A stretch of DNA of 64,000 bases. Source: an uncultured Candidatus Nitrosopumilus sp. GTDB taxonomy: Archaea > Thermoproteota > Nitrososphaeria > Nitrososphaerales > Nitrosopumilaceae. The translations under genes and the position numbers were made by a program. The notes under the pieces were generated by a model. It ran no database searches. It saw only the letters and a list, made by a program, of their open reading frames with translations, and was not told where the DNA came from. The stretch is taken from NCBI GenBank assembly GCA_951812645.1, contig CATOSM010000001.1, forward strand, positions 971,560 to 1,035,559, read 5' to 3'. This document shows positions 6,734 through 63,108 of this stretch, in pieces (within the stretch, counting starts at the first letter, position 1; each line of letters starts with the position of its first letter).

Positions 6734-6759
6734 TAATCAGACACATCACAAAAGTACAA

Positions 6760-7176: not shown

Positions 7177-7255
7177 AGTTTGTGAACAATTCTTTGCAAT
7201 TCCCTAGAAGAAATTATACGTATTTTTTAAAAGACCTGGTTGTAAAACGACCAGT

Positions 7256-8869
7256 ATGAGAGCAAAACTAGGGCTATTTTCTGCATTTTCGTTGATTATT
7301 CTAATGGTTGTTCCTGCCCACGCAGACGTTCTTACAGTGGATATCGACAAAGAATCTTTCACTGCTGATGACAAATTTACACTTTCAGGAACAGTAAGTG
7401 AGCAAAATGGGCTATTGATAACAGCTGCGATGAAAGGACCGTCATCTGAAAAACTAAATAGAAATGCATTTGCTACTGGAGGAACGTTTACTTTTACATC
7501 AATTAATGCAGATGATCTTTTCAAATCAGAAGGAATCTATACCGTTACAGTATTTACAGAAAATCAGCAACCGGTAAACGGAACAGTGCTCAAAATCAGT
7601 TATGATAACGGCATTGCAAGCATGTTACCAGACTTTGAAGTAATTCTAAATCCTATTGGAAATAAACAAGTAGATGAAAACCAGAAATTATCTTTTACAG
7701 CAAGCATAGCAGATTCAGAAGTCACAGACGAGGAATTTAGTTTACAAAATCATCCTAGTGGTGCAAAAATTAACAGAGACACAGGAGTATTTTCTTGGAC
7801 ACCGACTAATTCTCAATCAGGAGGGTATATTTTCGACATTATAGTTAAATCTGGACTGTTGGAAGATAAAGAAACCATTACTGTAACAGTAAATGACAAA
7901 CCAGTTGTAACTGAACCGCCAGTACAAACTACTGAACCAGAGCCTGAACCGGTTTTAGAGCCAGAACCAACAGAGCCAGGATTAGCACCATTTGTGGACG
8001 AAGCAAGGGATCCGCAGAGCTATGTTGACAGATACAACACAGAGGCAGGCTACAAGAAGTGGTTTGACGATAACTTTGCAGAGTATGATTCCATCTACCA
8101 GGCAGTCGGATTGGAGGAGCCACTGCTCATTCCAGCATCATTTGTGGACGAAGCAAGGGATCCGCAGAGCTATGTTGACAGATACAACACAGAGGCAGGC
8201 TACAAGAAGTGGTTTGACGATAACTTTGCAGAGTATGATTCCATCTACCAGGCAGTCGGATTGGAGGAGCCAATTGAATTAGCACCATTTGTTGATCCAA
8301 ACATTGATCCACAATACTATGTTGACAGATATGACAAAGAAACAACATACAAAGAATGGTTTGATAAAGCACATCCTGACATTACCATCTACCAGGCAGT
8401 CGGATTGGAGGAGCCAGAAGTAGTTGAAGAAGAATTTGGGGAGTGCGGAGCAGGTACTGATTTGGTTGATGGAGCATGTGTTATTGTAGATAATTCCAGA
8501 GGAGGATGCCTAATTGCTACTGCAACATATGGCTCGGAGATGGCGCCACAGGTTCAACTACTCAGAGAAATTAGAGATAATCAATTGATGAATACAGAAT
8601 CAGGAATGTCCTTTATGACAGGATTCAGTCAGTTCTACTATTCATTCTCACCACACATTGCAGACATGCAAAGAGAAAACCCAGCATTCAAAGAATTTGT
8701 AAAAATATCAATTACGCCATTACTTTCAACATTGCCCATAATGTCACATGCAGAGACAGAATCTGAAGTATTAGGATATGGAATTGGCGTAATTTTGATG
8801 AATTTGGCAATTTATTTCGGAATACCTGCAGTTGTCATTTTACAGACTAGAAAATACATCAGAATCTAG
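7256..8869 (+). CDS. Secreted cell-surface protein with repeat module and C-terminal membrane anchor
   Basis: 537 residues. A signal peptide covers residues 1-24. An immunoglobulin-like He_PIG domain lies at about 130-215 (NRDTGVFSWTP, ETITVTVND). A Pro/Glu-rich linker follows, then three copies of a 44-residue module beginning FVDEARDPQSYVDRYNTEAG at about 245, 296 and 345; the third is diverged. Near 420 is GGCLIATATYGSEMAPQVQL, the CFI-box motif common in thaumarchaeal surface proteins, and a hydrophobic helix lies close to the C-terminus. The protein is likely anchored outward in the membrane or S-layer. A neighbour 78 bases downstream shares the repeat and He_PIG domain, so the two probably act on the same surface structure. 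Confidence 0.85.
   Translation: MRAKLGLFSAFSLIILMVVPAHADVLTVDIDKESFTADDKFTLSGTVSEQNGLLITAAMKGPSSEKLNRNAFATGGTFTFTSINADDLFKSEGIYTVTVFTENQQPVNGTVLKISYDNGIASMLPDFEVILNPIGNKQVDENQKLSFTASIADSEVTDEEFSLQNHPSGAKINRDTGVFSWTPTNSQSGGYIFDIIVKSGLLEDKETITVTVNDKPVVTEPPVQTTEPEPEPVLEPEPTEPGLAPFVDEARDPQSYVDRYNTEAGYKKWFDDNFAEYDSIYQAVGLEEPLLIPASFVDEARDPQSYVDRYNTEAGYKKWFDDNFAEYDSIYQAVGLEEPIELAPFVDPNIDPQYYVDRYDKETTYKEWFDKAHPDITIYQAVGLEEPEVVEEEFGECGAGTDLVDGACVIVDNSRGGCLIATATYGSEMAPQVQLLREIRDNQLMNTESGMSFMTGFSQFYYSFSPHIADMQRENPAFKEFVKISITPLLSTLPIMSHAETESEVLGYGIGVILMNLAIYFGIPAVVILQTRKYIRI
7991..8414 (+). repeat. Tandem coding repeats, 44-residue module
   Basis: 7991-8121 and 8142-8272 appear base-for-base identical over about 130 bases. 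8288-8414 is a diverged third copy whose last part (ATCTACCAGGCAGTCGGATT) is again identical. A fourth near-identical copy lies in the next gene. Identity at silent positions points to recent duplication or gene conversion. Confidence 0.9.
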
Positions 8870-22049: not shown

Positions 22050-22443
22050 TTGAAGGTAGCAAAAGAAGAACCATCACATTCCACAGAAGGGTTGGCCCTA
22101 GACTTGTTCTTGCAGGGAATAAAAGCAGATGCTACCAAGAAAAAATACGCAAGGACATTACGAAAGATAGTTTGTGGCATCTTTGAGGATGCTTTGGAGG
22201 GAGATTTTGGGCGAAGAGTCGATCAATTGGCAAGACTGTCAAGGGAGAATCCAAAATGGGCCACAGGCTTGGTTTTGAATCTTTCAAAAAAAGTAAGAGC
22301 GAACAAGGTTACCAAAAGTCATTCCAATTATCTGAATCATCATCATTTGACAGTCATTTCAAACCAATCAAGAAACTCTGACATGAATGACGTTACAGTA
22401 TCATGGAAGCGAATCCATGCAACGTTTCCAGAGATAGACAATG
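22050..22443 (+). pseudogene. Tyrosine integrase remnant, N-terminal part
   Basis: Starting at TTG 22050 the frame encodes a core-binding-like N-terminal domain (GIKADATKKKYARTLRKIVC). It then shows two compensating frameshifts: the segment SSSFDSHFKPIKKL is in another frame near 22335-22382, and the original frame resumes with DMNDVTVSWKRIHATFPEID. The pattern KPIKKLLDMN...WKRI is what I associate with thaumarchaeal tyrosine recombinases. The catalytic domain is absent because an IS fragment begins at 22444. It lies directly after tRNA-Ala. Confidence 0.7.
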
Positions 22444-22725
22444 AACTCATCCTAAAACCCTCCAATACGTCATGATGCATGCCAGATACACAAACCTGAG
22501 ACAGTTGTCACAGTTCCTTTCGTATCTGACTGCCGTCCCGTGAAGCCCGCACTTGAGCCAGGCAAGGAACCGCTCTACGACAAACCTTGTCTTGCCATCC
22601 CTTTTTGGCGGCAACTGATGATGAATCAACTGAAATTTTTTGCAGGTAAATCCCTTCCTGACTGTGTGCTGATTTGATCAGTTTGAAGGGAATCTTCCTC
22701 CAAATTCCCTTTTGCCATACTAAAA
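22444..22725 (-). mobile_element. IS5-type element, internally deleted fragment (copy A)
   Basis: The end AACTCATCCTAAAACCCTCC is shared with the other copies, followed by the transposase C-terminal coding part (GKTRFVVERFLAWLKCGLHG, read on the minus strand). Sequence then jumps to an internal region ending near 22725 without the opposite inverted repeat. Copies B, C, D and F are more complete. Confidence 0.85.
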
Positions 22726-26458: not shown

Positions 26459-28132
26459 CTAGCTGCAGGTTGCTGAATACGTTACGGATTCCGTGATGGT
26501 GACATCAGGTCCCGTTGCAACGCGGCTAAGGTCAAGCACAAAGCCGACCGATGCAGAACCGGAGGATTCTGAGCCTGGAAGCGCGTTTGGTCCGGTAAAG
26601 TTGGCAGCAGGAAAGTTGATGCCGGCCGAATCAGTTGGGATAGTGCTATAGGATGCCGAACTGGTTACATCAGTGCCGACCTTGGATACGGCACCAGAAA
26701 GGGCAGAGCCGTCAGGCTTTTGCCATCCGCTAGAGGTAAACTTTATTCCCCCAAGGTCCTGGTTGCCGGCATTTTTGATTTGGTTTTGTACGATACTGGA
26801 CGTGGCGCCGTATTTTGCGCCTGCAAAGTCCATGACGTAGGTTCCAAGGGATATGGAGCACACGTCTGATACTTCAAGGTCTGCAATTGACTTTTGTACC
26901 GTCCCTTTTTTATCATCTACCAGTACCTTGAGTTCCGGATCATTATAGTATGGATTGTAGTTTATGTCTCCGGACAATATTTTTGTAAAGTCAGGCTCTG
27001 CTTCTCCGTAATAGTTGTGCGTTGCAACCATCACTCCTACTGCCCTATTGATAATATCAAAGCCTTTTATGTTATCAAAGGTGTTATGGGTAAATCTGTT
27101 TGTGCTGTCAATCTTTGTTGCTTCATCAGTTATATGCAGATGATATTTGGTATTACCCAGTTCGTTTGGAGATACCCCACATTTTCCTGTACAAAAGGCA
27201 ATTCCGTTATTGCCTCCAGAGATGGTGTTGTTACCAACGGTAACATGAGACATGGGCTCTCCTCCCGACAACTTGATAGCTCCTCGCAGGGTATCGTCTT
27301 TGACTCCGTTAAGGAATTCTAGCGTATTGCTTGCATTATGTATGTGATTCTCAAGAACCCTTATGTGCTTACCTGCTCGAAGATCAATTGCGGCGGCAGG
27401 AATATTTGAGAATGTGTTGTCCTGTATCAGGATATTTTCACCGTTAACAAAGTTTATTCCGGCAAATGTCACAGTGTCAATGGTGTTGCCGGTAATTTTG
27501 GAATCCTGCAGGCCGCCTGCGTTTGACTTAAGAGTAATAAAATACATTGCACTCATCAATTTCTTGGCCTTTTGAGTAGCATTCAATCCGGGCTCGTAAA
27601 ATGTTCCAATGTTCTTAAACACGTTATCTGTCACATTCAGGTTTCGTATCAGAGTGTCAGCTGCATTGGACGTATTTATTCCGCCCCCCCTAGTGTCTGC
27701 TAGCGTGTTGTTGTGTATTGTTACATCAGATGCAGTTTTCCAAATGGTTATTGCATAGACTGACGTAGTATTCTTAAACGTGATACCCTTTATGGTAACA
27801 TCATTAGAATATACATAAAGCCTGGATGCTCCGTCAAGGACTACCCTTTCATTTGCAGCAGGCTCTATTGTCAGTGCTTTGTTGACATTTATTCTACCTT
27901 CATCATAAGTTCCAGCTGAGATTGATATGGTATCACCATTAGCTGCTGCCATAATTGCAGACTTTATGGTACGGTGTATAGTAGGATCATCACAAACTGG
28001 TGTCCCACGATCACCATCAGCACATCCTGGATTTACAGTAAGTGTATCAGCATATGCGGAAGGAACCGCAACCAGCACGGCAAGTGCCGCAACCATAAGC
28101 ATCGTATAGTGTAAGGCGGTGAATTTTCTCAT
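26459..28132 (-). CDS. Secreted parallel beta-helix surface protein, copy 1
   Basis: 557 residues from the ATG at 28132, where a signal peptide begins (MRKFTALHYTMLMVAALAVL then VAVPSAYA). The open frame runs on upstream, but without coding character. Residues 50-390 are right-handed beta-helix repeats of the pectate-lyase/NosD kind (ASDVTIHNNTLADTRGGGIN, ITGNTIDTVTFAGINFVNGE). The C-terminal 150 residues form a separate beta domain with two cysteines (VSDVCSISLGTYVMDF, ending SATCS). It is probably a cell-surface carbohydrate-binding or adhesive protein. A paralogue lies at 45018-46688. Composition is more GC-rich than neighbours. Confidence 0.82.
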   Translation of the reverse strand: MRKFTALHYTMLMVAALAVLVAVPSAYADTLTVNPGCADGDRGTPVCDDPTIHRTIKSAIMAAANGDTISISAGTYDEGRINVNKALTIEPAANERVVLDGASRLYVYSNDVTIKGITFKNTTSVYAITIWKTASDVTIHNNTLADTRGGGINTSNAADTLIRNLNVTDNVFKNIGTFYEPGLNATQKAKKLMSAMYFITLKSNAGGLQDSKITGNTIDTVTFAGINFVNGENILIQDNTFSNIPAAAIDLRAGKHIRVLENHIHNASNTLEFLNGVKDDTLRGAIKLSGGEPMSHVTVGNNTISGGNNGIAFCTGKCGVSPNELGNTKYHLHITDEATKIDSTNRFTHNTFDNIKGFDIINRAVGVMVATHNYYGEAEPDFTKILSGDINYNPYYNDPELKVLVDDKKGTVQKSIADLEVSDVCSISLGTYVMDFAGAKYGATSSIVQNQIKNAGNQDLGGIKFTSSGWQKPDGSALSGAVSKVGTDVTSSASYSTIPTDSAGINFPAANFTGPNALPGSESSGSASVGFVLDLSRVATGPDVTITESVTYSATCS

Positions 28133-28477
28133 GGAATACCTGTGATCAGAGGGGTTAATAAACTGTCGGTTCCGCAGAGGCCGTGTGTTTTTGACCCAGC
28201 TGCGATGCATTCCAGATGGGTTTCCCTGTCTGAGATCACCTTTTTTTAAAATAAAAATATCTAAAACTTTTTCAATGTTATGCTTTGAACAATGTGATGA
28301 CTCTTTAATTTTCGATAGGAGTCTAGTTTTTGGTAAAGAGACAGCAGTTGAGATCATGCAAAGGCAATTTTGTAGATAACAGACTTTCTTTAGAAATATC
28401 CGAAATGTTTTCTTTCCAAACAGGAAAATGCTCAGATTAATTCGGTTTTCTTGGATGGAATCCATTTCTCAGAAGGG
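28133..28477. other. Upstream region of beta-helix copy 1
   Basis: About 70 bases directly upstream of the ATG (GGGGTTAATAAACTG, AGAGGCCGT, TTTTTGA, CAT TCC) are conserved in the same order upstream of the paralogue at 46689-46770, so promoter and leader were duplicated with the gene. Beyond about 28230 the similarity ends and no gene is evident until the fragment at 28478. Confidence 0.5.
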
Positions 28478-28530
28478 ATGGTTCAGGATTGTCAAAAGGA
28501 TCTGCTGCTGGAATTTTTGGAAGAATATCC
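28478..28530 (+). pseudogene. Gene fragment interrupted by IS copy B (5' part)
   Basis: The frame ATG GTT CAG ... encodes MVQDCQKDLLLEFLEEYP and runs into the IS at 28531. The continuation on the far side (29395-29448) reads IEYEDIDKPKKIRKKKE and stops. Joining the two with the element removed keeps the frame with no extra base. Codons upstream of 28478 in the same frame also look coding but end at a stop near 28390 with no start. Confidence 0.5.
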
Positions 28531-29394
28531 AACTCATCCTAAAACCGATCATTTTGCAAATAATTCGTGATAACCGGGATCTGACAATGACTCTGCTGAT
28601 ATATCTTTCATGATTCACAAAGAAATGTCAGATGTTCAATGGAACGGTTCTATCACATCTGCCAAAACCTGCAAGAACAGGACATCCAAGATGTGATGAC
28701 AGAAGCACAATCAACGGAATATTGTTTGTCCTAACAACCGGCTGCAGGTGGGCAGACATGTCAGACAGATATGGTTCAAAATCCACTGCGCATCTGAGAT
28801 TCTCAACTGCAGCAAAAGGGAATATGGAAAAGGATTCTGTCAGAACTGATCAAATCTACATACAGACAGGGAAAAATCAACCTGCAAAAAATTTCAGTTG
28901 ATTCATCATCAGTTGCAACCAAAAAGGGGGGACAAAACAGGATATGACGGGTCCAGGAAGATCCTAGGCACAAAGATTCACGCTACAGTAGACAGGACTG
29001 CCAATCCCAATCAGGGCCAGCCCTGCAAATGTCCATGACGGTACAAAATTCATTGGTGTGTCAGAAGACATCTCAACCTGCAGATGATGGTTTGATACGG
29101 CAGATCATCTCAGCGTATACCTACAGGGGATACGATGCGGCATGCATCATAAACTATCTGGGATGCCATGGGATTGACTGTTGCATTCCATACGGGAATA
29201 ATTCAAAGAACATTGCACAAAACAGGAATCAAAAACATCATGGCAAGACAAGGTTTGTCGTAGAACGGTTATTTGCCTGGCTCAAGTGAGGACTTCACGA
29301 GACGGCAGTCAGATACGAAGGGAACTGTGATGACTGTCTCGGGTTTGTGTATCTGGCATGCATCATGACGTATTGTAGGGCTTTAGGATAAGTT
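28531..29394 (+). mobile_element. IS5-type insertion sequence (copy B)
   Basis: Terminal inverted repeats AACTCATCCTAAAACC and, at the other end, GGGCTTTAGGATAAGTT. Inside are an N-terminal transposase frame (GHPRCDDRSTINGILFVLTT, CRWADMSDRYGSKS; DUF4096-like) and a C-terminal DDE frame (GYDAACIINYLGCHGIDCCI, KHHGKTRFVVERLFAWLK). The frames are broken by several indels, and a TGA follows FAWLK, so this copy cannot encode an active transposase. Length is 864 bases. It lies opposite in orientation to copies A, C, D and F. Confidence 0.9.
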
Positions 29395-29448
29395 CATAGA
29401 ATACGAAGACATTGATAAGCCCAAAAAAATACGAAAGAAAAAGGAATA
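29395..29448 (+). pseudogene. Gene fragment interrupted by IS copy B (3' part)
   Basis: Encodes IEYEDIDKPKKIRKKKE and TAA 29446-29448 in continuity with the fragment at 28478-28530. The basic C-terminus is common in nucleic-acid-binding proteins, but the fragment is too short to assign. Confidence 0.5.
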
Positions 29449-33964: not shown

Positions 33965-34946
33965 ATGAACATGCGTGAACAAAAAGGGAAACAAATTGCA
34001 TTGAAATTCGATCTGATCAGAGTTTCAGATCATCATTACAAAGTAAATTCACAAACTTCCAAAAGAGATTATGATGTCGTAAGGATTAACGATAAATGGA
34101 CTTGCAACTGTGCAGACCACAAATTTAGAAAGGTTTGTTGTAAGCATATTCATGCCATTGAAATATCGATCAAGATTAGAGAAGTAAGACAGAAGAACAA
34201 GGTTACTATTTCACCAATCACAATATCAAGTTGCAAGTTCTGTCACGGAATAAACATCAAAAAATTTGGTGTTCGTAGAAACAAATCAGGGAACATTCAA
34301 AGATTTGTGTGTTATGACTGTCAAAAGACATTCTCGATGAATCTAGGATTTGAAAGAATGAAGTCAACCCCTCAGGCCATAACATCTGCATTACAGCTTT
34401 ATTTCACTGGAGAATCATTAAGAAGTGTAACAAAATTCCTCAAGCTTCAAGGCACTAACGTATCCCATGTTATCGTGTACAGTTGGATTACAAAATATAC
34501 AAAACTAATGGAAAAATACATTGACAGAATAGTACCAAACGTAGGCGATGCATGGAACGCTGATGAAATATTCATGAAGATTCACGGTGACCTAAAGTAC
34601 GTCTTTGCATTAATGGATCAAGAGACTCGATACTGGATAGCCCAAGAGGTAGCAGACAGAAAGGAAGGCCATGATGCAAGAGGGTTGTTAAAGAAATCAA
34701 GAGACGTGGCACAAAAGAAACCAAAGGTCTTGATTACTGACGGATTGCCATCATACCATGAGGCCTACAGGAAGGAATACGGGACTGAAGAGAGAGGACA
34801 GAACCCTACACGTCAGACACATCCACCTACAGGTGACATGAACAACAACATTTAGGAGAGATTGAACGGTGAGATTCGAGACCGTGAGAAAGTAATGGGG
34901 AGATTGAAGAAGAAAGACACTTCGATATTAACAGGTTATCAAATCA
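33965..34946 (+). pseudogene. DDE transposase with SWIM zinc finger, stop codon and truncated end
   Basis: The N-terminus has a SWIM finger (WTCNCADHKFRKVCCKHIHA), then a C4 zinc ribbon (CKFCHG, CYDCQKTF), then a DDE integrase core with NADEIFMKIHG (first Asp) and VLITDGLPSYHEAY (second Asp). TAG at 34853-34855 interrupts the frame, which then continues in register as ERLNGEIRDREKVMGRLKKK to TGYQI, where the third acidic residue lies. The gene is cut at about 34940 by an IS5-type fragment. The product is inactive. SWIM-bearing transposases of the IS6/IS240 kind are known from archaea. Confidence 0.75.
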
Positions 34947-35524
34947 CCATCTACAAGTTCTGAGATGTCTTCTGACACATCGATGAATTTTGTACTGTCA
35001 TGGACATTTGCAGGGCTGGCCCTAATTGAAATTGGCATTCCTCTCTTGTCTATTGCAACATGAATCTTTGTGCCCAGGATCTTCTTGAACCCGTCATAAC
35101 CTGTTTTGTCCCCCTATTTTTGGCGGCAACTGATGATGAATCAATTGAAATTTTTTGCAGGTTGATTTTTACCTGTCTGTGTGCAGGTTTGATTGAACTG
35201 GATAGAATCCTTTTCCATATTCCCTTTTGCTGCAGTTGAGAATCTCAGATGCGCAGTGGATTTTGAACCATATCTGTCTGACATGTCTGCCCACCTGCAG
35301 CCGGTTGTTAGGACAAACAATATTCCGTTGATTGTATTTCTGTCATTACATCTTGGCCTTCCAGTTTTTGCAAGTTTTGGCAGGTTTTGGCAGATGTGAT
35401 AGAACTGTGTCCCATTGAATGCCTGACATCTCTTTGTAAATCATGAAAGATGCGTCAGCAGAGTCATTGTCAGATCCCGGTTATCGCGAATTATTTACAA
35501 AATGATCGGTTTTAGGATGAGTTG
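34940..35524 (-). mobile_element. IS5-type element, partial (copy C)
   Basis: It matches copies D and F from the middle of the DDE domain (GTTCTGAGATGTCTTCTGAC) to the right inverted repeat CGGTTTTAGGATGAGTT at 35508-35524. The other third, including the left repeat, is missing. The junction with the SWIM transposase lies where both partners read TATCAAA, which suggests illegitimate recombination at short homology. Coding frames are shifted. Confidence 0.85.
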
Positions 35525-35648
35525 GTCATTGGTTAGGACAAGAAATTTTGATTGTCAAAGAACTGTTAGTCAAAAAATAACAAGCTAGATCGCAAATCTT
35601 GTGCTAGGAGGTTAAGAAAATACGTAACTCGTAGAAAATGAGCAGGGG

Positions 35649-37175
35649 CTAAATTACAGAGTCTTTTGTTTTGAAAACTCGCTTAAAGTAATCAGATGGC
35701 TCTTTTGGTTCTTCAATGTCATTGGTAATTCCAGCCAGGTTCTTTGCCAAGTTCTTTTTGTATCCAACCTGCATCTGTCTTTGAATTTGGATTCTTTGTG
35801 CTTGTGGCGAACCTGCTCCATGCATGGACTCGGTAAGATAACCAACTGCGTTTCTTCCCAAAGTCATGTTTTCAATTAATCTTAAGATTCTCATTCTATT
35901 TTCTACGTCGGTCCCTTTTCTTCCAGCAAGGTATTTTTTGAGTAGCGGTCCTGCTTCTGGATGTCTGAAATCTTTCTCAGAAGGCAGTGTAACTACTAGC
36001 CCACCTGCGATATCTTGTGCCAATCTACTGATTTCATATGGGAATCGTGTAACGTTGTGTTTGCAAACTTGTGCAAGCATGTCATCGTTAAGATATACGC
36101 CAGACTTCATTTTTTGGCCTTGATGTGATGATGCAATTCCTGCGGCAAAGATCGTCTCGTTAAGATGAGTCATTTCAATAATCTTGTCTTTAATGTGAGA
36201 GACCTTAGGAACGCCATTGTAATCTGCAATAGTGGCTGCTGCACCAATTAACACATCGCCAAGACCTGTCTTGCATACATAACTACGTCTATGATAACAC
36301 GTGAATCTCTCCACAAGCATTGATGCAAATTCATATTCGCCATGCATGAAGATTTTATCCCATGGAATGAACACCTTGTCTAAAATAATTAGAGCCTCTT
36401 GACCCCCAAATTTTGCATTACCATCATCAATGTCGCCTTCTTCCATACTTCTTGTGTCACAAGATTGTCTACCGTAAATGTAAGTAACGCCTCTTGTATC
36501 TGCGGGAATTGCGCCCACAATTGCCCAGTCCTTATCAGATTCTGTCAGTCTGATTGTCGGCATCAAGATAATCCAGTGGGAATTGATGCATCCAGTCTGA
36601 TGTGCTTTGGCACCTGAAACATAAACTCCCTTATCGTCAGTTTCTACCACCCTAGTAAACAAATCGGGATCATCTTGTTCAGCAGGTCCTTTGCTTCTGT
36701 CTCCCTTAGGATCAGTCATGGCACCGCCAATTACAAGATTTTCCTTCTGGACCATTTTTACAAATTCCAAGAATCGCTTGTGATAATCAGTTCCATGCTT
36801 TTCATCAATTTCAAATGTCGTAGAATGAAGAGAATTCATTGCATCCATTCCCACACATCTCTGGAAACAGGTTCCAGTGTTTTGTCCAAGTTTTCTTTGC
36901 ATTTTATTTTGTGAGACTAGATCCTCTGCACTTTCTGCAATATGTAAAAATCTGTTAACTTTCAATCCCGTAATTGATGAATCGGCAGAAGCTAGTGCCT
37001 CTTCACGCAAAGCTAAATCATAAGTTTCTGCAACAGCATTGATAGATGGCCTAATCACAGGATGATCTACCGGCTCTTTAACTAATTCTCCAAATAGGTA
37101 AACTTTGAGATCACGACCCCTAAGACTTTCGATGTAATCATCCCCAGTTCTGATTGTCTTTAAGACATTGGCCAT
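35649..37175 (-). CDS. 4-hydroxybutyryl-CoA dehydratase
   Basis: 508 residues, full length for the HpaB/AbfD flavoprotein family. Iron-sulfur ligands appear as TCFQRCVGMDA (Cys103, Cys107) and YHRRSYVCKTG (His near 295, Cys301); FAD-binding segments are intact. It dehydrates 4-hydroxybutyryl-CoA to crotonyl-CoA, an oxygen-tolerant key step of the thaumarchaeal 3-hydroxypropionate/4-hydroxybutyrate cycle. The acyl-CoA synthetase that would make its substrate lies directly upstream on the same strand, the same pairing as described for Nitrosopumilus maritimus. Confidence 0.93.
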   Translation of the reverse strand: MANVLKTIRTGDDYIESLRGRDLKVYLFGELVKEPVDHPVIRPSINAVAETYDLALREEALASADSSITGLKVNRFLHIAESAEDLVSQNKMQRKLGQNTGTCFQRCVGMDAMNSLHSTTFEIDEKHGTDYHKRFLEFVKMVQKENLVIGGAMTDPKGDRSKGPAEQDDPDLFTRVVETDDKGVYVSGAKAHQTGCINSHWIILMPTIRLTESDKDWAIVGAIPADTRGVTYIYGRQSCDTRSMEEGDIDDGNAKFGGQEALIILDKVFIPWDKIFMHGEYEFASMLVERFTCYHRRSYVCKTGLGDVLIGAAATIADYNGVPKVSHIKDKIIEMTHLNETIFAAGIASSHQGQKMKSGVYLNDDMLAQVCKHNVTRFPYEISRLAQDIAGGLVVTLPSEKDFRHPEAGPLLKKYLAGRKGTDVENRMRILRLIENMTLGRNAVGYLTESMHGAGSPQAQRIQIQRQMQVGYKKNLAKNLAGITNDIEEPKEPSDYFKRVFKTKDSVI

Positions 37176-37248
37176 GTAACATTATTCATTTTGATGTTGT
37201 ATAAATATTCTAGATTAATTATAATGAAAATTTAGGAATGGATTGCGA

Positions 37249-39345
37249 TCAGAGTCCGATTCGAACGTCAAGGATTCTGCATCCCCTGCCTTTTTCCATG
37301 ACAAGTACAGGGTTCATATCTAATTCTTTGATCTCTTTAAAGTCTGAAACCAGTTGTGACAGTCTTTGAATGCATTCAGAAAGTTTTGCAGTATCAGATG
37401 GTTTTTCACCTCTGACTCCTTGTAATAATTTTTGAGTTTTTATTGATGCAATCATATCGTCAGCTTCTTTGTCAGTTGCAGGTGCAAGTTTGAACGTCAC
37501 ATCCTTGAGGACTTCAACGTAGATTCCACCCATGCCAAGCATGATTACGGGGCCAAAACCAGGCTCTAGTTTTGATCCTATAATGAGCTCTTTGCCACCT
37601 TTTACCATCTCAACAATTAAGACGCCCTTGACTTCGGCTTTTTTGTTGTAACTTTTTGCGTTTTTGACTATGGTTTTAAAGGCAGATTTAATTTCAGCGT
37701 CGCTTGTTAGATTAACTTTAACGCCACCAGCATCAGATTTGTGAATAATTTGTGGAGATGCGATTTTCATTACGACAGGATAGCCTATTTTCTTTGCAAT
37801 CCTTACAGCTTCTGATTCAGACGTTGCAAGAGCGCTGTTTGGTAAAGGCAGACCGTAAGCCTTGAGAACCTCTTGTCCTTCTTCCTCTAACAGATTCGGT
37901 CTTTTTTCATCTTTAACCTTGTCAAAGATCTCTTGGGCTTTGGCTCTGTTTACCTTGAATTTTGTAATTTTTCCACTTGGTGCTTTTGTCCAATTTGAGA
38001 AGCGAATCATTGCTGCAAGAGTTCGGATTGCGCCCTCAGCATATGCATAGTATGGAACACTTCCTTTAGCAAGGATTTCCCTATTTGTTATTCCCTCATC
38101 TAATCCCATCAAACTTGCAAGCATTGTCTTTTTGTATTTCTTTGACATTTTTACAATGACTTCAGCAAGTTTGTCATAATCCAAGGTTCCAGAAGGAGTG
38201 CACATGGGGATTACGGAACCGACTTTTGGATGTCTTAGGACTCTATCTAGAACATTTTCAAAACGATTAAAATCGGCGTCACCTACAATATCTACCGGAT
38301 TTCTTGAACTTCCCCAAGGGGGAATAACAGAATCGATTTGTTTTCTTACAGAGGCGATGTTTGCCATTTTGATGTTCATTTTTGAGCAGGCATCAGTGGA
38401 AATGATTGCAGGTCCTCCGGCATTTGATACGATTACAAGTTCGCCCTTTGATGGAAGGGGTTGTTTTGAAAATGCAGTGGCATAATCAAAGAGTTCTTCC
38501 ATAGTGTCAACTCTAATTGCTCCAGACTGTCTAAGCAGGGCATCATAGATTTCATCTGAGCCCATTAATGCACCTGTGTGAGACATTGCAGCCTTTGCAC
38601 CTTCAGGACTCCGTCCAGATTTTAAGACCAGGACAGGTTTTTTGAGTTTTTTGGTGATATTTTTACAGACTTTAAGAAATTCTTGGCCATCGCCCATATC
38701 CTCAAGATACATAACGATAACCTCAGTTTGTTTGTGATTTGCAAGAATTTTTAGAACGTCGACCTCGCTCATTACGGCTTTGTTTCCCAAACTGACAACG
38801 GCTGAAAAACCAATACCCTGTGCACTGGCATCTTCTACTAATGCTGCACATATCGCACCGCTTTGTGAGACAAGTGCGATTTTTCCAGACTTTGGCGTGA
38901 CTTTGAGAAATGTGGAATTCATCATTGTCTTTGGATCAAGATTCATGACACCAAGACAATTTGGTCCAATAACTTGCATCCTGTATTTTTTAGCGATATC
39001 TTTTACCTGCTGTTCACGTTTAGCCCCTTCCTCATCGACTTCTTTGAAACCTGCTGTGATGATGATGACGCCCTTGACTTTTTTCTTTCCACATTCTTCT
39101 AAAACAGGAGTGACCAGAGTATTTTTGATTACAATGACTGCAAGATCGATTGGCTTTGGAACATCTAAAACAGATTTGTATGCTTTTTTGTAAAAGACTT
39201 TATCTCTTGATGGACTAATTGGATAGACTGTTCCTTTAAACCCATTCATAATATTAGATGTAATTGTAGCTCCAACACTTCCTCTCTTATCAGATGCACC
39301 AATTACCGCAATAGATTTTGGAGACAAGATTGCAGAATCTGCCAT
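37249..39345 (-). CDS. ADP-forming acyl-CoA synthetase, probably 4-hydroxybutyrate-CoA ligase
   Basis: 698 residues with both halves of the ADP-forming (NDP-forming) family fused. CoA-binding domain: VIGASDKRGSVGATITSNIM. Ligase domain: AMSHTGALMGSD with the phospho-histidine, and PPWGSSRNPVDIVGDADFNR. C-terminal ATP-grasp domain: YPVVMKIASPQIIHKSDAGG and DMNPVLVM. It activates hydroxy acids with production of ADP, a low-energy-cost feature of the thaumarchaeal carbon cycle. Specificity for 4-hydroxybutyrate is inferred from its neighbour. Confidence 0.9.
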   Translation of the reverse strand: MADSAILSPKSIAVIGASDKRGSVGATITSNIMNGFKGTVYPISPSRDKVFYKKAYKSVLDVPKPIDLAVIVIKNTLVTPVLEECGKKKVKGVIIITAGFKEVDEEGAKREQQVKDIAKKYRMQVIGPNCLGVMNLDPKTMMNSTFLKVTPKSGKIALVSQSGAICAALVEDASAQGIGFSAVVSLGNKAVMSEVDVLKILANHKQTEVIVMYLEDMGDGQEFLKVCKNITKKLKKPVLVLKSGRSPEGAKAAMSHTGALMGSDEIYDALLRQSGAIRVDTMEELFDYATAFSKQPLPSKGELVIVSNAGGPAIISTDACSKMNIKMANIASVRKQIDSVIPPWGSSRNPVDIVGDADFNRFENVLDRVLRHPKVGSVIPMCTPSGTLDYDKLAEVIVKMSKKYKKTMLASLMGLDEGITNREILAKGSVPYYAYAEGAIRTLAAMIRFSNWTKAPSGKITKFKVNRAKAQEIFDKVKDEKRPNLLEEEGQEVLKAYGLPLPNSALATSESEAVRIAKKIGYPVVMKIASPQIIHKSDAGGVKVNLTSDAEIKSAFKTIVKNAKSYNKKAEVKGVLIVEMVKGGKELIIGSKLEPGFGPVIMLGMGGIYVEVLKDVTFKLAPATDKEADDMIASIKTQKLLQGVRGEKPSDTAKLSECIQRLSQLVSDFKEIKELDMNPVLVMEKGRGCRILDVRIGL

Positions 39346-45017: not shown

Positions 45018-46688
45018 CTAGCTGCAGGTTGCAGAATAGGTTACGGATTCCGTGATGGTGACATCGGCACCCGTTGCAACGCGGCTAAGGTCAAGCACAA
45101 AGCCGACCGATGCAGAACCGGAGGATTCTGAGGTTGGAAGCGCGTTTGGTCCGGTAAAGTCGGCAGCATTAAGGGTGATGCCGGCCGTACCAGCGTTGAT
45201 AGTGCTATAGGATGCCGAACTGGTTACATCAGTGCCGACCCTGGATACGGCACCAGAAAGGGCAGAGCCGTCAGGCTTTTGCCATCCGCTAGAGGTAAAC
45301 TTTATTCCCCCAAGGTCCTGGTTGCCGGCATTTTTGATCTGGTTTTGTACAATGCCAGACGTGGCGCCGTATTTTGCGTCATCAAAGTCCATGACGTAGG
45401 TTCCAAGGGATATGGAGCACACGTCTGACACGTCAAGGTCTGCTATTGACTTTTGTACCGTCCCTGTTTTATCTACGAGTACCTGGAGTTCCGGATCATT
45501 ATAGTATGGATTGTAGTTTATGTCTCCGGACAATATTGCCGTAAAGTCAGGCGCTGCCGTCCCGTAATAGTTGTGCGTTGCAACCATCGGACCGAATGCC
45601 TGGTTGATGATATATCTGCCCCCTACACTGTCAAAGGTGTTGCGGGTAAACGTGTTTGTGCTGTCAGTCTTTGTTGTGGTATCAACGATATGCGAAGGAT
45701 TTTTGGCATTTCCCAGTTCTGTTGGAGATACCCCACATGCTCCCGTACAGTAGACAATTCCGTTATTGCCTCCAGTGATGGAGTTGCCGCTAACGGTAAC
45801 ATGGGAGGAATCCTTGGCCCATAACAGAATGGCTCCCTCAGTGACATCTTCTGGAACCCCATTAAGGTACTCTAATGCATTGTTTGCATTGTGTATGTCA
45901 TTGTCAAGAATCTGTATATGGCTGGCACCCAATGCAAGCTGAATTGCAAATGCCGGAAGATTTGAGATTGTGTTGTTTTGCACCAGAATATTTTGAGTAC
46001 CACCCAGGTTTATTCCGGCAAATGTCGCAGTATCAATGATGTTGCCGGTAATGTTGGAATTCTGCAAGCCGCCTAGGTTTGATTTACTAGTCGAGAAATA
46101 CATTGCAGTATGCAGTTTTTTGGCCTTTTGAGTTACATTCAATCCGGGCTCATAAAATGTTCCAATGTTCTCAAACACGTTATCTGTAACAGCCAAGTTT
46201 TGTATCAGAGTGTCAGCTGCATTGGCCGTATTTATTCCGCCCCCCCTAGTGTCTGCTAGCGTGTTGTTGTGTATTGTTACATCAGATGCAGTTTTGCCAA
46301 TGGTTATTGCATAGACTGACGTAGTATTCTTAAACGTGATACCCTTTATGGTAACATCATTAGAATATACATAAAGCCTGGATGCTCCGTCAAGGACTAC
46401 CCTTTCATTTGCAGCAGGCTCTATTGTCAGTGCTTTGTTAACATTTATTCTACCTTCATCATAAGTTCCAGCTGAGATTGATATGGTATCATTTGGATCT
46501 GCGGCTCCAATTGCAGACTTTATGGTACGGTATGTGGCAGGATCATCACAAACTGGTGTATTAGGATCAGCATCATCACATAATGGATCCACATTAAATG
46601 TGGCTGCATATGCGGAAGGAACCGCAACCAGCACGGCCAGTGCCGCAACCATAAACATCGTATATTGTAAGGCGGTGAATTTTCTCAT
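45018..46688 (-). CDS. Secreted parallel beta-helix surface protein, copy 2
   Basis: 556 residues from the ATG at 46688, which begins the signal peptide (MRKFTALQYTMFMVAALAVL). It has the same architecture as copy 1 at 26459-28132. The N-terminal third (INVNKALTIEPAANERVVLD, ASRLYVYSNDVTIKGITFKN) and the C-terminal domain (LGGIKFTSSGWQKPDGSALS) are nearly identical in DNA, while the middle beta-helix coils differ (GTQNILVQNNTISNLPAFAI against GENILIQDNTFSNIPAAAID). Likely cell-surface exposed. Upstream and downstream flanks are also shared. Confidence 0.82.
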   Translation of the reverse strand: MRKFTALQYTMFMVAALAVLVAVPSAYAATFNVDPLCDDADPNTPVCDDPATYRTIKSAIGAADPNDTISISAGTYDEGRINVNKALTIEPAANERVVLDGASRLYVYSNDVTIKGITFKNTTSVYAITIGKTASDVTIHNNTLADTRGGGINTANAADTLIQNLAVTDNVFENIGTFYEPGLNVTQKAKKLHTAMYFSTSKSNLGGLQNSNITGNIIDTATFAGINLGGTQNILVQNNTISNLPAFAIQLALGASHIQILDNDIHNANNALEYLNGVPEDVTEGAILLWAKDSSHVTVSGNSITGGNNGIVYCTGACGVSPTELGNAKNPSHIVDTTTKTDSTNTFTRNTFDSVGGRYIINQAFGPMVATHNYYGTAAPDFTAILSGDINYNPYYNDPELQVLVDKTGTVQKSIADLDVSDVCSISLGTYVMDFDDAKYGATSGIVQNQIKNAGNQDLGGIKFTSSGWQKPDGSALSGAVSRVGTDVTSSASYSTINAGTAGITLNAADFTGPNALPTSESSGSASVGFVLDLSRVATGADVTITESVTYSATCS

Positions 46689-47008
46689 GATATACATGTG
46701 ATCAGTGGGGTTAATAAACTGTTGGTTCTGCAGAGGCCGTTTGTTTTTGATCCAACTCCAATACATTCCATACCATGATCTGTCCGGGATGCAGGCTTTG
46801 TCCCAGGTATGAAATCGTCTCACACCAGGATGTGCCGTACAATGCCCGACACTGTCAAGCGGTGCGGGATTCCACGCTGCACGCATTGTGAATCTGTCGG
46901 TTCTTGAAGTTTCACGGGAATGTACTGTGTTTGGCGATAAACGGATCCCAGACGGTCATCGGAGACTGCCTGAATGGTCGGTTTTGGGATCAGCTCAATG
47001 TATTAGTT
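46689..47008. other. Upstream region of beta-helix copy 2
   Basis: The first 80 bases match the leader of copy 1. The remainder up to 47008 holds no gene I can support. The open frame continuing upstream from the signal peptide (46689-46886) has no protein character and is treated as non-coding. Confidence 0.5.
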
Positions 47009-47074
47009 TTATCTTTTTAATAAATCATACAAGAATGCATCAGATTCTTTATCATCCATTGCGTTTCCATATTG
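47009..47074 (-). pseudogene. Detached 3' end of the winged-helix/nucleotidyltransferase gene
   Basis: Codes for QYGNAMDDKESDAFLYDLLK R and a TAA at 47009-47011. With IS copy D removed it continues the frame of the gene at 47949-50039 directly after SELRN, extending that protein by 21 residues to about 718. Confidence 0.6.
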
Positions 47075-47948
47075 AACTTATCCTAAAACCCTCCAATGCA
47101 TCATGACGCATGCCAGATACACAAATCCAAGACAGTCATCACAGTTCCTTTCGTATCTGACTGCCGTCCCGTCAAGTCCGCACCTGGGCCAGGCAAAGAA
47201 CCGCTCTACGACAAACCCTGTCTTGCCATGATGTCTTTGATTCCTGTTTTGTGCAACGTTCCTTGGGTTCTTTTTGTATGGAATGCAACGGTCAATCCCA
47301 TGGCGTCTCAGATAGCTTCTGATGCATGCCGCATCGTATCCCCTGTCGGCATATGCTGAGATGATCTGCCGTATCAAACCATCATCTGCAGGTTCTGGGA
47401 TGTCTTCTGACACACCAATGAATTTCGTACTGTCATGGACATTTGCAGGGCTGGCCCTGATTGGGATTGGCAGTCCTGTCCTGTCTGCTGCAACATGAAT
47501 CTTTGTGCCTAGGATCTTCCTGAACCCGTCATATCCTGTTTTGTCCCCCCTTTTTTGGCGACAACTGATGATGAATCAACTGAGATTTTTTGCAGGTTGA
47601 TTTTTCCCTGCCTGTGTGCGGATTTTATCAGTCCTGACAGAATCCTTTTCCATATTCCCTTTTGCTGCAGTCCTGAGAATCTCAGATGCGCGATGGGTTT
47701 TGAACCGTAGCTGTCCGGCATGTCTGCCCGCCTGCAGCCGGTTGTTAGGACAAACAATGTTCCGCTGATTGTGTTTCTGTCATTGCATCCTGGCCTTCAG
47801 GTTTTTGCAGGCTTTGGCAGATGTGATAGAACCGTTCCATTGAATGTCTGACATCTCTTTGTGAACCATGAAGGATGCATCGGCATGGTCATTCTTGGAT
47901 CCCGATTGTCATGAATTGTTTACAAAATGATCGGTTTTAGGATGAGTT
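47075..47948 (-). mobile_element. IS5-type insertion sequence (copy D)
   Basis: Ends AACTTATCCTAAAACCCTCC (47075) and CGGTTTTAGGATGAGTT (47948); 874 bases. The minus strand encodes DUF4096-type frame (CRRADMPDSYGSKPIAHLRF, KISVDSSSVVAKKGGTKQDM) and the DDE part (SEDIPEPADDGLIRQIISAY, GIDRCIPYKKNPRNVAQNRN, RHHGKTGFVVERFFAWPRCG). It is the most complete copy, but frames are still separated. It interrupts the gene to its right. Confidence 0.92.
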
Positions 47949-50039
47949 GTTCCTTAATTCACTGACTTGATATCCATTAATATTTCCTATTGAGATATTT
48001 GATAGTTTTACACATATCTTTGTGAATCCAATGGCTGTTAAATTGAATTTAGGGAAATGATCTTTTTCATAATTAGTTGCCACTGCAAGCGTGTGAATGA
48101 CAATATCATCAATTTCTCCTATAGTAGTATAACCAAAATCAAGCAAGTCATCTGAAAATGCTCTTATTTTTGGATCAGATGGTTTTGTTCGGGATGTAAA
48201 TCTCCAATCCAAGTATGTCTTCAGATTTTCAGTATTGATTTCCCATGTAGGTTCAGGGAAGATGGATGATCGAGCTAATTCCAAATAGACTTTACGGCCA
48301 ATACGCTTTTTGATTAGCGTTCCATCTCGTTCTAATGAATCCACACGATTCCGTATCATTTTTTCAGATATGTCAGCACCATAAAGTAATTCGACGATAT
48401 GGTTTAGAGGCTGTATTCCGCCACGTAGTCTATTTTTGATTAAACGATCTAAAACATGGCGCTTTAACTTATCTAGAAAAGGAGCAACAATTCCAGTTTG
48501 TTCATCTAAATAACTTAGTTGTTGAAAAACATCAGTTGTGAAATCCCGTAGATGATTCGTATGTTCTTGTAACAACATTTCTTCCCATACAACAGTCCAA
48601 TCAAACATGCCATGTTGATATTCAGAAGGTTGATGACTGCCACCTTGTACTAATAATTCCATATCTTGAATATCTCCTTCCCTGCTAGCTATAGCCTTTA
48701 AAAGAAAAACGTCCTCATTTCGTAATAATCCGACTTTGAGATTGTCATAATCAATTATATCTGCACGTGAAACCATGGTATGTGAAAGAACTGCAGCATG
48801 CATTATTTTTTTTGTAAATAAATCGATTCTACTACTAGATGGGTGTTCTAAAATATCATCTGGAAGTATCCTAGCGTCTTCTGTAGAAAACTGTTCTACA
48901 GGCTTTCTAGAATAATTTAATTTAGTGACCAATATTGATTTAAGCCTCTCAAAATCGGTTGAGTTTTCAACAACAATATCGCAGTCTTTGGTACTACCTT
49001 TAAGATTCTTGATTCTCATATTTTCTCCACCTATAAGATAAATAGTCATATTTTCTGATAAGTTCTTTTCAATATTGGCAAAAAGACCCGATGTTGCATT
49101 AGGTAAAATATAATTTTCAGATGGAACGTTGTATAATGTAGCTTTTGATACAAACTCTTCCCATGAGAGAAATAACTCGGGATTTTTTAGATTACGTTTT
49201 CGTAAATAACCCTCTATATCTAACCAAGTTGTGGAAATCCCAAAAAGGGCAGACAGTTTACGGAGTTTGATCGTATCAAATTTTTCTTTATGTTTAGCAT
49301 AGAAAACAACAGCAATTATCAAACCAAGTTTGTCTTTTGCCTCATGTGCAGCCATAACAATGTGTATTAAAATATCATGAATGTCTAATGGAAAATCTTG
49401 TTTTACATAATAATCATATGGAGAATTGTATTGAATTCCATAGTCAGAAAACAAAGAATATCCAGTAGTTTGGCCCTCGGTAATTTTTCCAGATAATACT
49501 TTTTTTAATGTTATGGCACCATTTTTGAAAATAACTTGTGCATTAGGTTCATAAAGACTTTCTTGCTCAGTTTTTAAAATTTTTGCAAAAGTTACAAGTT
49601 CTTTATTTGTAGAAGAGATTTGTATTTTATCTGGAATGCGTGATTTTAACGCATCATCCCAATCAAATTCTTTGGTAAGTACACCTATTGACTCAAAATC
49701 GGAAATTGCTCTATAAACAGTACTAGAAGAAAAACCGGTATTAATACAAAGTTGATTAACTGTAAATGGTTCTGTCAATAATGGAAATAGTTGTTCATTT
49801 GAATCATGAAAAAGTCTTTCAATATCGAGTTTTCTTGAAAGAGATAGTAAAAGTTTAGATTTTGCATTGTCTTGGAGTGAAATTATACCATCATTTTTTT
49901 TGATATAGTTTTCTTGAATGAGATTTTTAATATGCTCGTTAAATTGCCATTCTTTTATTTCTACAATGTTCATTAAAGCCTTAGAATCCGAGGTACCGCC
50001 CATCACATGTTTTAGTAAACGCAGTGCTGTAGTATGCAT
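47949..50039 (-). CDS. Winged-helix / nucleotidyltransferase-like protein, 3' end split off by IS copy D
   Basis: 697 native residues, then three codons from the IS end before TAA. The N-terminal 130 residues form one or two winged helices (EPFTVNQLCINTGFSSSTVY RAI). The middle is helical with TWLDIEGYLRKRNL. IYLIGGENMRIKNLKGST followed by KDCDIVV (334-357) has the GG...S-x-K-D-x-D pattern of a minimal nucleotidyltransferase, as in AbiEii/DUF6036-type proteins. Residues 560-625 hold another winged helix. Regulator plus nucleotidyltransferase in one chain suggests a toxin-antitoxin or abortive-infection factor; that is inference. Confidence 0.65.
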
Positions 50040-57561: not shown

Positions 57562-57689
57562 ATAGTGTGCATAGCATTAACTATAATTAGATTATCTGAA
57601 TAATACGTAATTTTTTTGAAGAAAATAACCCTCTAAGATAGCTTATTTTCAATCATTTCTTTAAAATACATAATTTATAATTCAAAATC

Positions 57690-58877
57690 ATGGAATTTAC
57701 TGTATACACATCAGATGTAAGCAGTTCATTATTCTATATTACACATGTAGACAATATTCCTTCAATAATTTCAAAAGGTATTTTATCTCATAATTCTATT
57801 GAATCTGAAGGATTAGCTCATACTTCAGTATATGACAAACAAATTATTTCTAATCGTAAAAAAAAAGAAATCGAAGGTAAAAGCCTGTGGAACTACGCAA
57901 ATCTGTATTTCCAGCCACGAAATCCAATGCTCTATCGTGTAACTATGGAAAAATCTGTTGATTCTATTGCTGCAATAGCAGTTAGAAAATCCATTATTGA
58001 AGCTTCTGGTGTTTTTATTTCTGATGGAAATGCCGCAAGTAACAACACTAAATTTTATCCTGGGGAGCAGTTTAATCTTGTTGAACCTCAAATACAAAGA
58101 ATGGCTAAACTAAAGTGGTGGTCATGGCATGATTCTACTAAAAGGCAAATAATGGCAGAATGTTTAGTGCCTGAAAAGATCCCTCCTCACCTTATTAATG
58201 CAATTTATGTTAGTAATCATGAAATTGCTAAAAAAATTGACAAATCTATTTCTTCTAACACTCCTGTAATTCCTGAACCTATTATGTTTTTTCAACCTGT
58301 TAAAAAAATTGATCTTACAAATGATCTTTCATTGGTTGAAGGTGATTTGTTTTTCTCCAGAATGCAAACTCTAACTGTTAGTGTTAATTGTAAGGGTGTT
58401 ATGGGGAAAGGATTAGCATCTCGTGCAAAATATCAATTTCCTGATGTTTATGTTCATTATCAAGATCAATGTAAGAAAAAAACACTAAGAATGGGTAAGC
58501 CTGTATTGTATAAACGCGAAAGTCCCTATAAGGAAGAATTTGCAGATGGTCTTAATGTAACATCTACCATAGACAATAGATGGTTTTTGCATTTTCCTAC
58601 AAAGGACGATTGGAAAAATAATAGTAACATCAGTGATATTGAAAAAGGATTACAATGGTTAGTCACTAATTATAAGAAATTAGGAATCACTTCTCTTGCC
58701 ATACCTGCCTTAGGGTGTGGTTTAGGGAATTTAGCATGGAAAGATATGGGTCCAATTCTTTGTAGTTACCTATCCACTATGGATATTCCAGTATGGGTTT
58801 ATCTCCCTGCTGAAAAAAATGTGCCTGAAGAATTTCTTACTAAGGAATTTTTACTTAAAGGCAAAATCACTGGATAA
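57690..58877 (+). CDS. DarT-type DNA ADP-ribosyltransferase fused to a DarG-type macrodomain
   Basis: 395 residues. The N-terminal half (about 10-205) matches DarT (DUF4433): FYITHVDNIPSIISKGILSH, Arg56 in SNRKKKEIEG, LYFQPRNPML (72-81) and the catalytic-type Glu157 in IMAECLVP. The C-terminal half (215-372) matches the DarG macrodomain: VEGDL, SVNCKGVMGKGLASRAKYQF (Lys240), LHFPTKDDWKNNSNISDIEK and PALGCGLGNLAW. DarT adds ADP-ribose to thymidine in single-stranded DNA, and DarG removes it; the pair acts as a toxin-antitoxin and phage defence. Normally they are two proteins. Here the frame is continuous with no internal stop, so toxin and antidote would be made as one chain. Flanked by a histidine kinase remnant and a nuclease. 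Confidence 0.88.
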   Translation: MEFTVYTSDVSSSLFYITHVDNIPSIISKGILSHNSIESEGLAHTSVYDKQIISNRKKKEIEGKSLWNYANLYFQPRNPMLYRVTMEKSVDSIAAIAVRKSIIEASGVFISDGNAASNNTKFYPGEQFNLVEPQIQRMAKLKWWSWHDSTKRQIMAECLVPEKIPPHLINAIYVSNHEIAKKIDKSISSNTPVIPEPIMFFQPVKKIDLTNDLSLVEGDLFFSRMQTLTVSVNCKGVMGKGLASRAKYQFPDVYVHYQDQCKKKTLRMGKPVLYKRESPYKEEFADGLNVTSTIDNRWFLHFPTKDDWKNNSNISDIEKGLQWLVTNYKKLGITSLAIPALGCGLGNLAWKDMGPILCSYLSTMDIPVWVYLPAEKNVPEEFLTKEFLLKGKITG

Positions 58878-58998: not shown

Positions 58999-59714
58999 AT
59001 GAAATTTTGTGCAGAATGTGGTGAGGATCTCAAAAGAAGTATAAAATTTTGCCTTGAATGTGGATTCAATATTGTTCTCTAATTACTAAAGAAACTAAGA
59101 AAGAAGCTATTGTTGAAAATAATATTTCAGAAGAATCTGTATTTGATGATGAAATATTAGAAGAACCCATTGTAGAAAAAACTGCCAAAGAACTTGGAAC
59201 AAATTTAGAAGATATGGTCGAAAAAATCCTTCAAGATAGGGGATTTTCCACTGAAACTAGAACAAAAACTAGAGATTCTTCTGGTCAACTAAACGAGATT
59301 GATATCATTGCAAAGAGAAATAGAATTGTACTTGCAGTAGAGTGTAAAAATTATGCTGAATCAAATAAAGTTGGAATTAAAGAAATACGTGATTTTAGTG
59401 CAAAGCTAGATGATTTAGATGTTAAAAAAGGATTATTTATCACAAATTCTGATTTTTCACAAGATGCAATTGGTTGGGCGACAAATAATCTACAATTAAA
59501 ACAAATTGATTTATGGAATGGCAATAAACTTACAGAGAATTTCCAAGCTACTGTTTTAGGAAGATCAGGTGGACAATTAACAAAAGTTTCTGACTGTCTG
59601 AATCCAAGAGATAGCATTGAAAATTATTCTAAGATTTTATTAAAAAATAAAAATAGTGTGGGAATTGCAAGACGAGATCTTGTCTTTCATCCTTATTACA
59701 TACAACTCATCTGA
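58999..59714 (+). pseudogene. Zinc-ribbon Mrr-like restriction endonuclease, frameshifted
   Basis: ATG 58999 opens MKFCAECGEDLKRSIKFCLE then CGFNIVL and a stop. A shift at about 59070-59080 continues LITKETKKEAIVENNISEES to the nuclease core: TAKELGTNLEDMVEKILQDR, QLNEIDIIAKRNRIVLAVEC followed by KNY (Asp, Glu-x-Lys of PD-(D/E)XK), and ATNNLQLKQIDLWNG. The last residues run into IS-like sequence at 59704. It probably cut foreign or modified DNA. It stands 122 bases downstream of the DarT/macrodomain gene on the same strand. Confidence 0.7.
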
Positions 59715-62017: not shown

Positions 62018-62147
62018 TTAATTTAAGTATATTTTTTTACACAAGGGACAACGTAGCATATTTGTATCTTTTTCAAGTACAGTGATTTGTTGGGTGAGAG
62101 CATCATACTTAACAAGAAAGAAGTTTTTGTTAAAACCTGAAATGTAG
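62018..62147 (-). pseudogene. Gene 3' fragment cut by IS copy F
   Basis: The minus-strand frame FYISGFNKNFFLVKYDALTQ then QITVLEKDTNMLRCPLCKKI YLN ends at 62018-62020. It has a coiled-coil segment and a half zinc ribbon (CPLC). No continuation is found on the far side of the IS, so the 5' part was lost by rearrangement. Confidence 0.45.
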
Positions 62148-63096
62148 AACTTATCCTAAAACCCTCCAATACATCATGATGCATGCCAGATACACAAACC
62201 CGAGACAGTCGTCACAGTTCCTTTCGTATCGGACTGCCGTCCCGTAAAGTCCGCACTTGAGCCAGGCAAGGAACCGCTCTACGACAAACCTTGTCTTGCT
62301 ATGATGTTTTTGATTCCTGTTTTGTGCAACGTTTCTTGAGTTCCTTTTGTATGGAATGCAACAGTCAATCCCATGGTATCCCAGATAGTTTCTGATGAAT
62401 GCCGCATCGTATCCCCTGTCGGCATACGCTGAGATGATCTCCCGTATCAAACCATCATCTGCAGGTTCTGAGATGTCTTCTACTCACTTAATTCAGATAT
62501 GATTGTGTTATTATTGTATTATTATTGTATCAAACCATCATCTGCATGTTCTGAGATGTCTTCTGACACACCAATGAATTTTGCACTGTCATGGACATTT
62601 GCAGGGCTGGCCCTGATTGGGATTGGCAGTCCTGTCCTGTCTGCTGCAATGTGTATTTTTGTGCCCAGGATCTTCCTGAGCCCGTCATATCCTGTTTTGT
62701 CCCCCTCCTTTTGGGGGCAACTGATGATGAATCAATTGATATTTTTTGCAGGCTGGTTTTTCCCTGTCTGTGTGCAGGTTTTATCAGTCCTGATAAAATC
62801 CTTTTCCATATTCCCTTTTGTTGCAGTTCTGAGAATCTCAGATACGCGGTGGATTTTGAACCGTATCTGTCTGGCATGTCTGCCCGCCTGCAGCCGGTTG
62901 TTAGGACAAACAATATTACGTTGATTGTGTTTCTGTCATTGCATCTTGGCCTGCCAGTTTTTGCAGATGTGATGCAACCGTGTTCCATTGAACGTCTGAC
63001 ATTTCCTTGTGAATCATGAAAGATACATCGGCAGGGTCATTCTTGGATCCCGATTGTCATGAATTATTTACAAAATGATCGGTTTTAGGATGAGTT
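62148..63096 (-). mobile_element. IS5-type insertion sequence (copy F)
   Basis: Ends AACTTATCCTAAAACCCTCC and CGGTTTTAGGATGAGTT as in copy D. It is 75 bases longer than D because of an internal insertion around 62480-62555. The DDE part (REIISAYADRGYDAAFIRNY, YHGIDCCIPYKRNSRNVAQN) and the DUF4096 part (GRPRCNDRNTINVILFVLTT) are on the minus strand and separated by frameshifts. Confidence 0.92.
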
Positions 63097-63108
63097 GATC
63101 GTAATATC

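Follow-up and report, generated by a model that had tools for sequence, protein, structure and literature searches.

How could a toxin be switched on when its antidote is part of the same polypeptide? The archaeal DNA analysed here (a stretch of 64,000 nucleotides, referred to below as the window) carries a gene in which a DarT-type ADP-ribosyltransferase is followed by a DarG-type macrodomain. With toxin and enzymatic antidote in one chain, activation by degrading the antidote alone is impossible. Even for split DarTG the activation step is a matter of proposals: either the antitoxin is degraded, or a phage protein binds directly (PMC11481870). Because the antidote is locked to the toxin, the single-chain form turns DarTG activation into a cleaner problem to study.

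Integrity of the reading frame

An earlier note on this DNA had described an uninterrupted 395-codon frame with hallmark motifs of both enzymes. The ORF, its coordinates and every quoted motif are as described, and the frame is intact (Table 1). DNA homology with the genome of a same-genus relative (G009) starts at position 57613, upstream of the gene, and the TATA-like box precedes the ATG at a distance that may be that of a leaderless archaeal mRNA.

Table 1 Features of the single-chain DarTG locus (window coordinates).
Feature	Position	Strand	Remarks
Single-chain DarTG gene	57690..58877	+	395 codons plus stop; DarT, then DarG-type macrodomain; ORF intact; PDB 7OMU homolog end to end
TATA-like box TTTAAAATA	57660..57668	+	About 26 bases 5' of ATG; sequence read
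DarT ADP-ribosyltransferase domain	57732..58286	+	Residues 15-199; Pfam PF14487, E=7.4e-47, profile positions 1-199 of 201
Arg56 codon	57855..57857	+	Invariant in fused family; aligns with conserved Arg of split DarT
Glu157 codon, catalytic glutamate	58158..58160	+	Invariant; matches Glu160 of Thermus DarT (alignment)
Linker	58287..58325	+	About residues 200-212, FFQPVKKIDLTND; FFQP-like motif
DarG-type macrodomain	58326..58829	+	About residues 213-380; PADLOC DarG, Pfam Macro
Lys305 codon, catalytic lysine of FPTK motif	58602..58604	+	Invariant in fused family; aligns with split-DarG FPTK

The fusion might be an artefact, namely a degraded or mis-assembled operon in which the stop codon between toxin and antitoxin has been lost; the earlier note placed such a loss, if any, at 58290-58340. 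Consistent with this reading, a run of seven adenines lies within the linker near 58301-58307, and in one relative, from Cyanothece BG0011, a frameshift falls in the linker. Against it, the same frame is open across the run in two contigs of the assembly, the window and contig C5, and it is also open in other genomes from several phyla. Three same-genus genomes carry fused orthologs: G009, whose protein is 74% identical to that of the window, G142 and G136. Another occurs in G033, which belongs to the same order but is less closely related (51% identical), and bacterial ones, at 48-54%, come from WOR-3, Poribacteria and cyanobacteria. When the window gene is compared with its same-genus orthologs, dN/dS is 0.21-0.35 in DarT, 0.10-0.31 in the linker and 0.14-0.16 in the macrodomain, ratios that denote purifying selection on all three segments. 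In addition, a homolog has been crystallised as a single chain (7OMU, see below). Given the conserved frame and the dN/dS values, a lost stop or an indel cannot explain the fusion; as far as sequence allows, the suspected lost stop is excluded, and the probability of a degraded operon is negligible.

The contig C5 copy merits a separate remark. The assembly (G000) comprises 2.2 Mb in 7 contigs, with a reported contamination of 8.79%. Contig C5 (41.4 kb; L010-L012) is collinear at 99.5% identity with window 35697-64000 and with bases beyond it, and ends in an insertion-sequence-like repeat. A true second gene copy was rejected as less likely in view of the length (40.5 kb) and identity of the collinear stretch; C5 is probably a strain-variant contig and not a separate locus, which fits the reported contamination. 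The frameshifted Cyanothece sp. BG0011 ortholog (L009:5500-5570) is itself of the fused type, with its linker interrupted at an A-rich run, either by sequencing error or by decay.

Domain architecture

The assignment of the two halves, made in the earlier note from motifs, holds in profile searches, where both match DarT and macrodomain profiles of Pfam, PADLOC and NCBIfam. The PADLOC DarT profile aligns with residues 13-201 (E=4e-39). In the second half, the PADLOC DarG profile matches residues 215-380 (E=6e-48) and Pfam Macro PF01661 matches residues 232-353 (E=1.1e-9). The NCBIfam scores, 101.5 of 150 bits for DarT and 153 of 250 bits for DarG, fall below the equivalog cut-offs, so that substrate or base specificity could differ.

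Alignment with split DarT proteins shows that the DarT2-type catalytic glutamate and the conserved arginine are both present, as Glu157 and Arg56. The counterpart of Arg56, counted here among the catalytic residues, is Arg51 in Thermus DarT. The counterpart of Glu157, Glu160 of Thermus aquaticus DarT, is essential for toxicity (PMC5179494). In the macrodomain, Lys305 corresponds to Lys80 of Thermus DarG, which is likewise essential (PMC8501950, PMC7003065).

Three further traits set the fused proteins apart in the alignment. The FFQP-like linker motif is common to them and absent from split DarT and DarG, the macrodomain carries an insert not seen in split DarG, and the chains terminate about 15-20 residues past the macrodomain. 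The C-terminal DarT-binding domain of DarG is absent from every fused member in the alignment, and of the PADLOC DarG profile the window protein covers only positions 4-152 of 329; the description of a one-piece DarT-DarG lacking the usual toxin-binding domain is thus borne out. A Pfam search of the protein returned only DarT and Macro, with neither a NADAR domain nor a toxSAS (alarmone synthetase-like) toxin domain.

Relation to known systems

The closest known protein is bacterial. PDB entry 7OMU, titled 'Thermosipho africanus DarTG in complex with ADP-ribose' and released on 2021-06-23, contains a single 406-residue chain, of which residues 25-404 align with residues 13-389 of the window protein (E=9.3e-132). 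As in the archaeal protein, DarT is followed by the macrodomain and by no further domain. The entry presumably belongs to a Nature paper of 2021. The crystallised chain differs from the window protein in having Ala at the catalytic Glu position: it reads IMAACLVP where other members have Glu, and the Thermus DarT chain is altered likewise. The substitution looks like an inactivating mutation: the toxin half presumably needed disabling, a hint that it is active in the fused context. An AlphaFold model of the window protein (five sequences; mean pLDDT 68.6, pTM 0.53) is too weak to place the macrodomain against the DarT cleft; the best PDB match of this low-confidence model is again 7OMU (383 columns, TM 0.70, rmsd 6.0).

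In the open-access literature searched, no description of the fusion was found. The single-chain architecture is nevertheless already known, at least structurally, from 7OMU, and the novelty that the earlier note implied for it does not stand, given this full-length homolog and a fused clade that spans several phyla. The window gene adds a further, archaeal protein to the known single-chain DarTG family. Two points described below, that the fused proteins form a single clade and that the sampled archaea have the fused form only, extend knowledge modestly.

Split DarT2-DarG systems (Thermus, M. tuberculosis, enteropathogenic E. coli) share both enzyme domains and the catalytic residues, but are encoded by two genes instead of one ORF, and their DarG carries the C-terminal DarT-binding domain. 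Identity between the window protein and plasmid-borne split DarT/DarG pairs is about 26-32%. Some split systems have a short DarG that, like the fused chain, consists of the macrodomain without the C-terminal domain (a Klebsiella quasipneumoniae plasmid, L042; cyanobacteria, L058, L060 and L061); in these the genes are separate, and the proteins group with other split DarTG in a neighbouring clade of the DarT tree. CapRel also combines toxin and antitoxin in one chain and has no labile separate antitoxin, but its toxin is unrelated, acting by tRNA pyrophosphorylation, and its antitoxin half works by autoinhibition, not by reversal of the toxin's product (PMC9712102). DarT1-NADAR couples ssDNA ADP-ribosylation to enzymatic reversal, but targets guanine and has a NADAR domain in place of the macrodomain (PMC11543638).

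Origin and distribution of the fused form

Trees were built separately for the DarT half and for the macrodomain half, each from 15 fused and 21 split proteins, with the root not fixed. In both, all fused proteins lie on one side of a branch, with support of 98/98 for DarT and 100/100 for the macrodomain, and a smaller set agrees. The simplest history suggested by a single fused clade in both trees is one old fusion that then spread between phyla, including between bacteria and archaea; since the trees are unrooted, a fused ancestor of the split proteins is formally possible. A recent fusion in this lineage was rejected by both trees. The proximity of macrodomain-only split systems to the fused clade in the DarT tree indicates that loss of the DarG binding domain may have preceded fusion.

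DarT is rare in the archaeal phylum, being found in 6 of 398 genomes and in few members of the same genus. Five of the six carry an intact fused gene and the sixth (G241) a truncated fused-type remnant, so that the fused form accounts for every intact DarT gene in the sampled genomes of this phylum. In cyanobacteria a DarT match was obtained in 37 of 292 genomes; among the matches read, six are fused; of the rest, those whose partner can be recognised mostly belong to split pairs. A decayed fused-type copy was also seen in G607. In G607 (L065) and G241 (L021) the DarT part survives as fragments, truncated or with stops, and an intact macrodomain is missing. In the viral contigs searched, fused-type members appear only as two N-terminal DarT fragments, both at contig ends (L024 and L025, IMG/VR predicted viral contigs; 53-55% identical).

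Genomic neighbourhood and proposed function

Directly downstream of the window gene lies a gene for an Mrr-type restriction endonuclease (59058-59714, + strand), with a weak match to the candidate defence family PDC-S02, and the neighbour of the fused gene in G142 matches another such family, PDC-M41A. Two cyanobacterial copies adjoin purL. No constant partner gene was found across the loci read, as expected of a self-contained system.

We consider it likely that the protein is a self-reversing module for ADP-ribosylation of thymidines in ssDNA, which would stop replication whenever the marks are no longer removed fast enough, for instance during virus infection. The N-terminal DarT domain would use NAD+ to place ADP-ribose on ssDNA thymidines, and the C-terminal macrodomain of the same chain would remove it by means of its catalytic lysine. 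The profile matches, the full-length homolog of solved structure, the invariant Arg56, Glu157 and Lys305 and the purifying selection along the chain speak for this reading. As the two activities are tethered 1:1 and the DarT-binding domain is missing, the cell would be protected by reversal and not by sequestration. The macrodomain of enteropathogenic E. coli DarG can, by itself, strip the modification from DNA, and in vivo it abolishes the toxicity of DarT (PMC7003065); hence reversal can suffice and the binding domain is dispensable for protection. Were reversal inhibited or outpaced, the modification would build up until replication is blocked; the most plausible trigger would be a replicating virus that exposes much ssDNA, or a viral factor that binds the macrodomain.

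Split DarTG acts in defence (PMC11481870), and this precedent, the patchy distribution and the adjoining Mrr-type nuclease fit a defence role for the fused form. The purL-adjacent cyanobacterial copies count against it, as they lie outside a defence island, in a place atypical of mobile defence genes. The same copies, through their shared location, favour a housekeeping function, in which the chain would serve as a reversible DNA-labelling switch, an idea raised in the earlier note, e.g. in control of replication initiation. A tethered, self-reversing enzyme would suit such a task, for which M. tuberculosis offers a precedent, since DarTG there labels the origin of replication and has a role in growth control (PMC12170906). 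However, the very sparse occurrence within the phylum and the genus, together with the decayed copies in G241 and G607, is unlike that of a core regulator, and we regard this function as unlikely.

A self-reversing defence module, the reading we prefer, is also to be weighed against activation by a sensor. By analogy to CapRel, whose C-terminal half serves as antitoxin and senses the capsid as well (PMC9712102), a viral factor might bind to the macrodomain half or at the domain interface and thereby switch DarT on; for DarTG, such direct activation has been put forward (PMC11481870). No trigger is known, however, and of the two halves the macrodomain is the slower to evolve, the opposite of what is expected of a sensor engaged in an arms race. 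Sensing of this type is conceivable, if on the improbable side.

With the two enzymes fused, activation by antitoxin degradation is removed from consideration unless the chain is cut. The earlier note had reasoned correctly that labile-antitoxin logic is impossible here without cleavage, the protein being one chain with no binding domain. Its further suggestion, that a protease frees DarT during infection, found no direct support. In G033 a DarT-like ORF (7333-7998; Pfam DarT E=1.6e-4) and then a trypsin-like protease gene (6621-7283) lie downstream of the fused gene (L015, 8002-9285) in the same orientation, possibly as a three-gene operon spanning L015:6621-9285, and this arrangement would accord with release by cleavage. 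None of the other loci read, however, showed a recognisable protease gene next to the fusion, most flanking ORFs being judged by eye, and the short linker is no less conserved than the domains that it joins. Proteolytic release is thus very improbable.

More tentatively, the fused clade may represent a distinct mode of control. Such a tethered write-and-erase enzyme, whose output would depend on how fast its two sites work or on a macrodomain ligand, could provide ammonia-oxidising archaea and cyanobacteria with a virus sensor or a DNA-marking switch that has no labile antitoxin.

Other observations

A macrodomain with about 40% identity to the DarG half (query 217-372) is present in many phiEco32-like phage records (H22-H40), possibly as an eraser of DarT marks. 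Elsewhere in the window, the genes at 35649-39345 read as two enzymes of the archaeal carbon-fixation cycle, 4-hydroxybutyryl-CoA dehydratase and acyl-CoA synthetase. Since the relatives also have small genomes of archaeal size, the host is probably an ammonia-oxidising archaeon. A repeat some 880 bases long occurs in full or partial copies, 85-96% alike, at 22442-22598, 28525-29402, 34937-35525, 47071-47949 and 62147-63097, the last of which contains broken transposase-like ORFs (62151-62988). On the minus strand, 26459-28465 and 45018-46886 encode two large paralogs that look secreted and contain parallel beta-helix-like repeats; their DNA is about 87% alike over part of its length.
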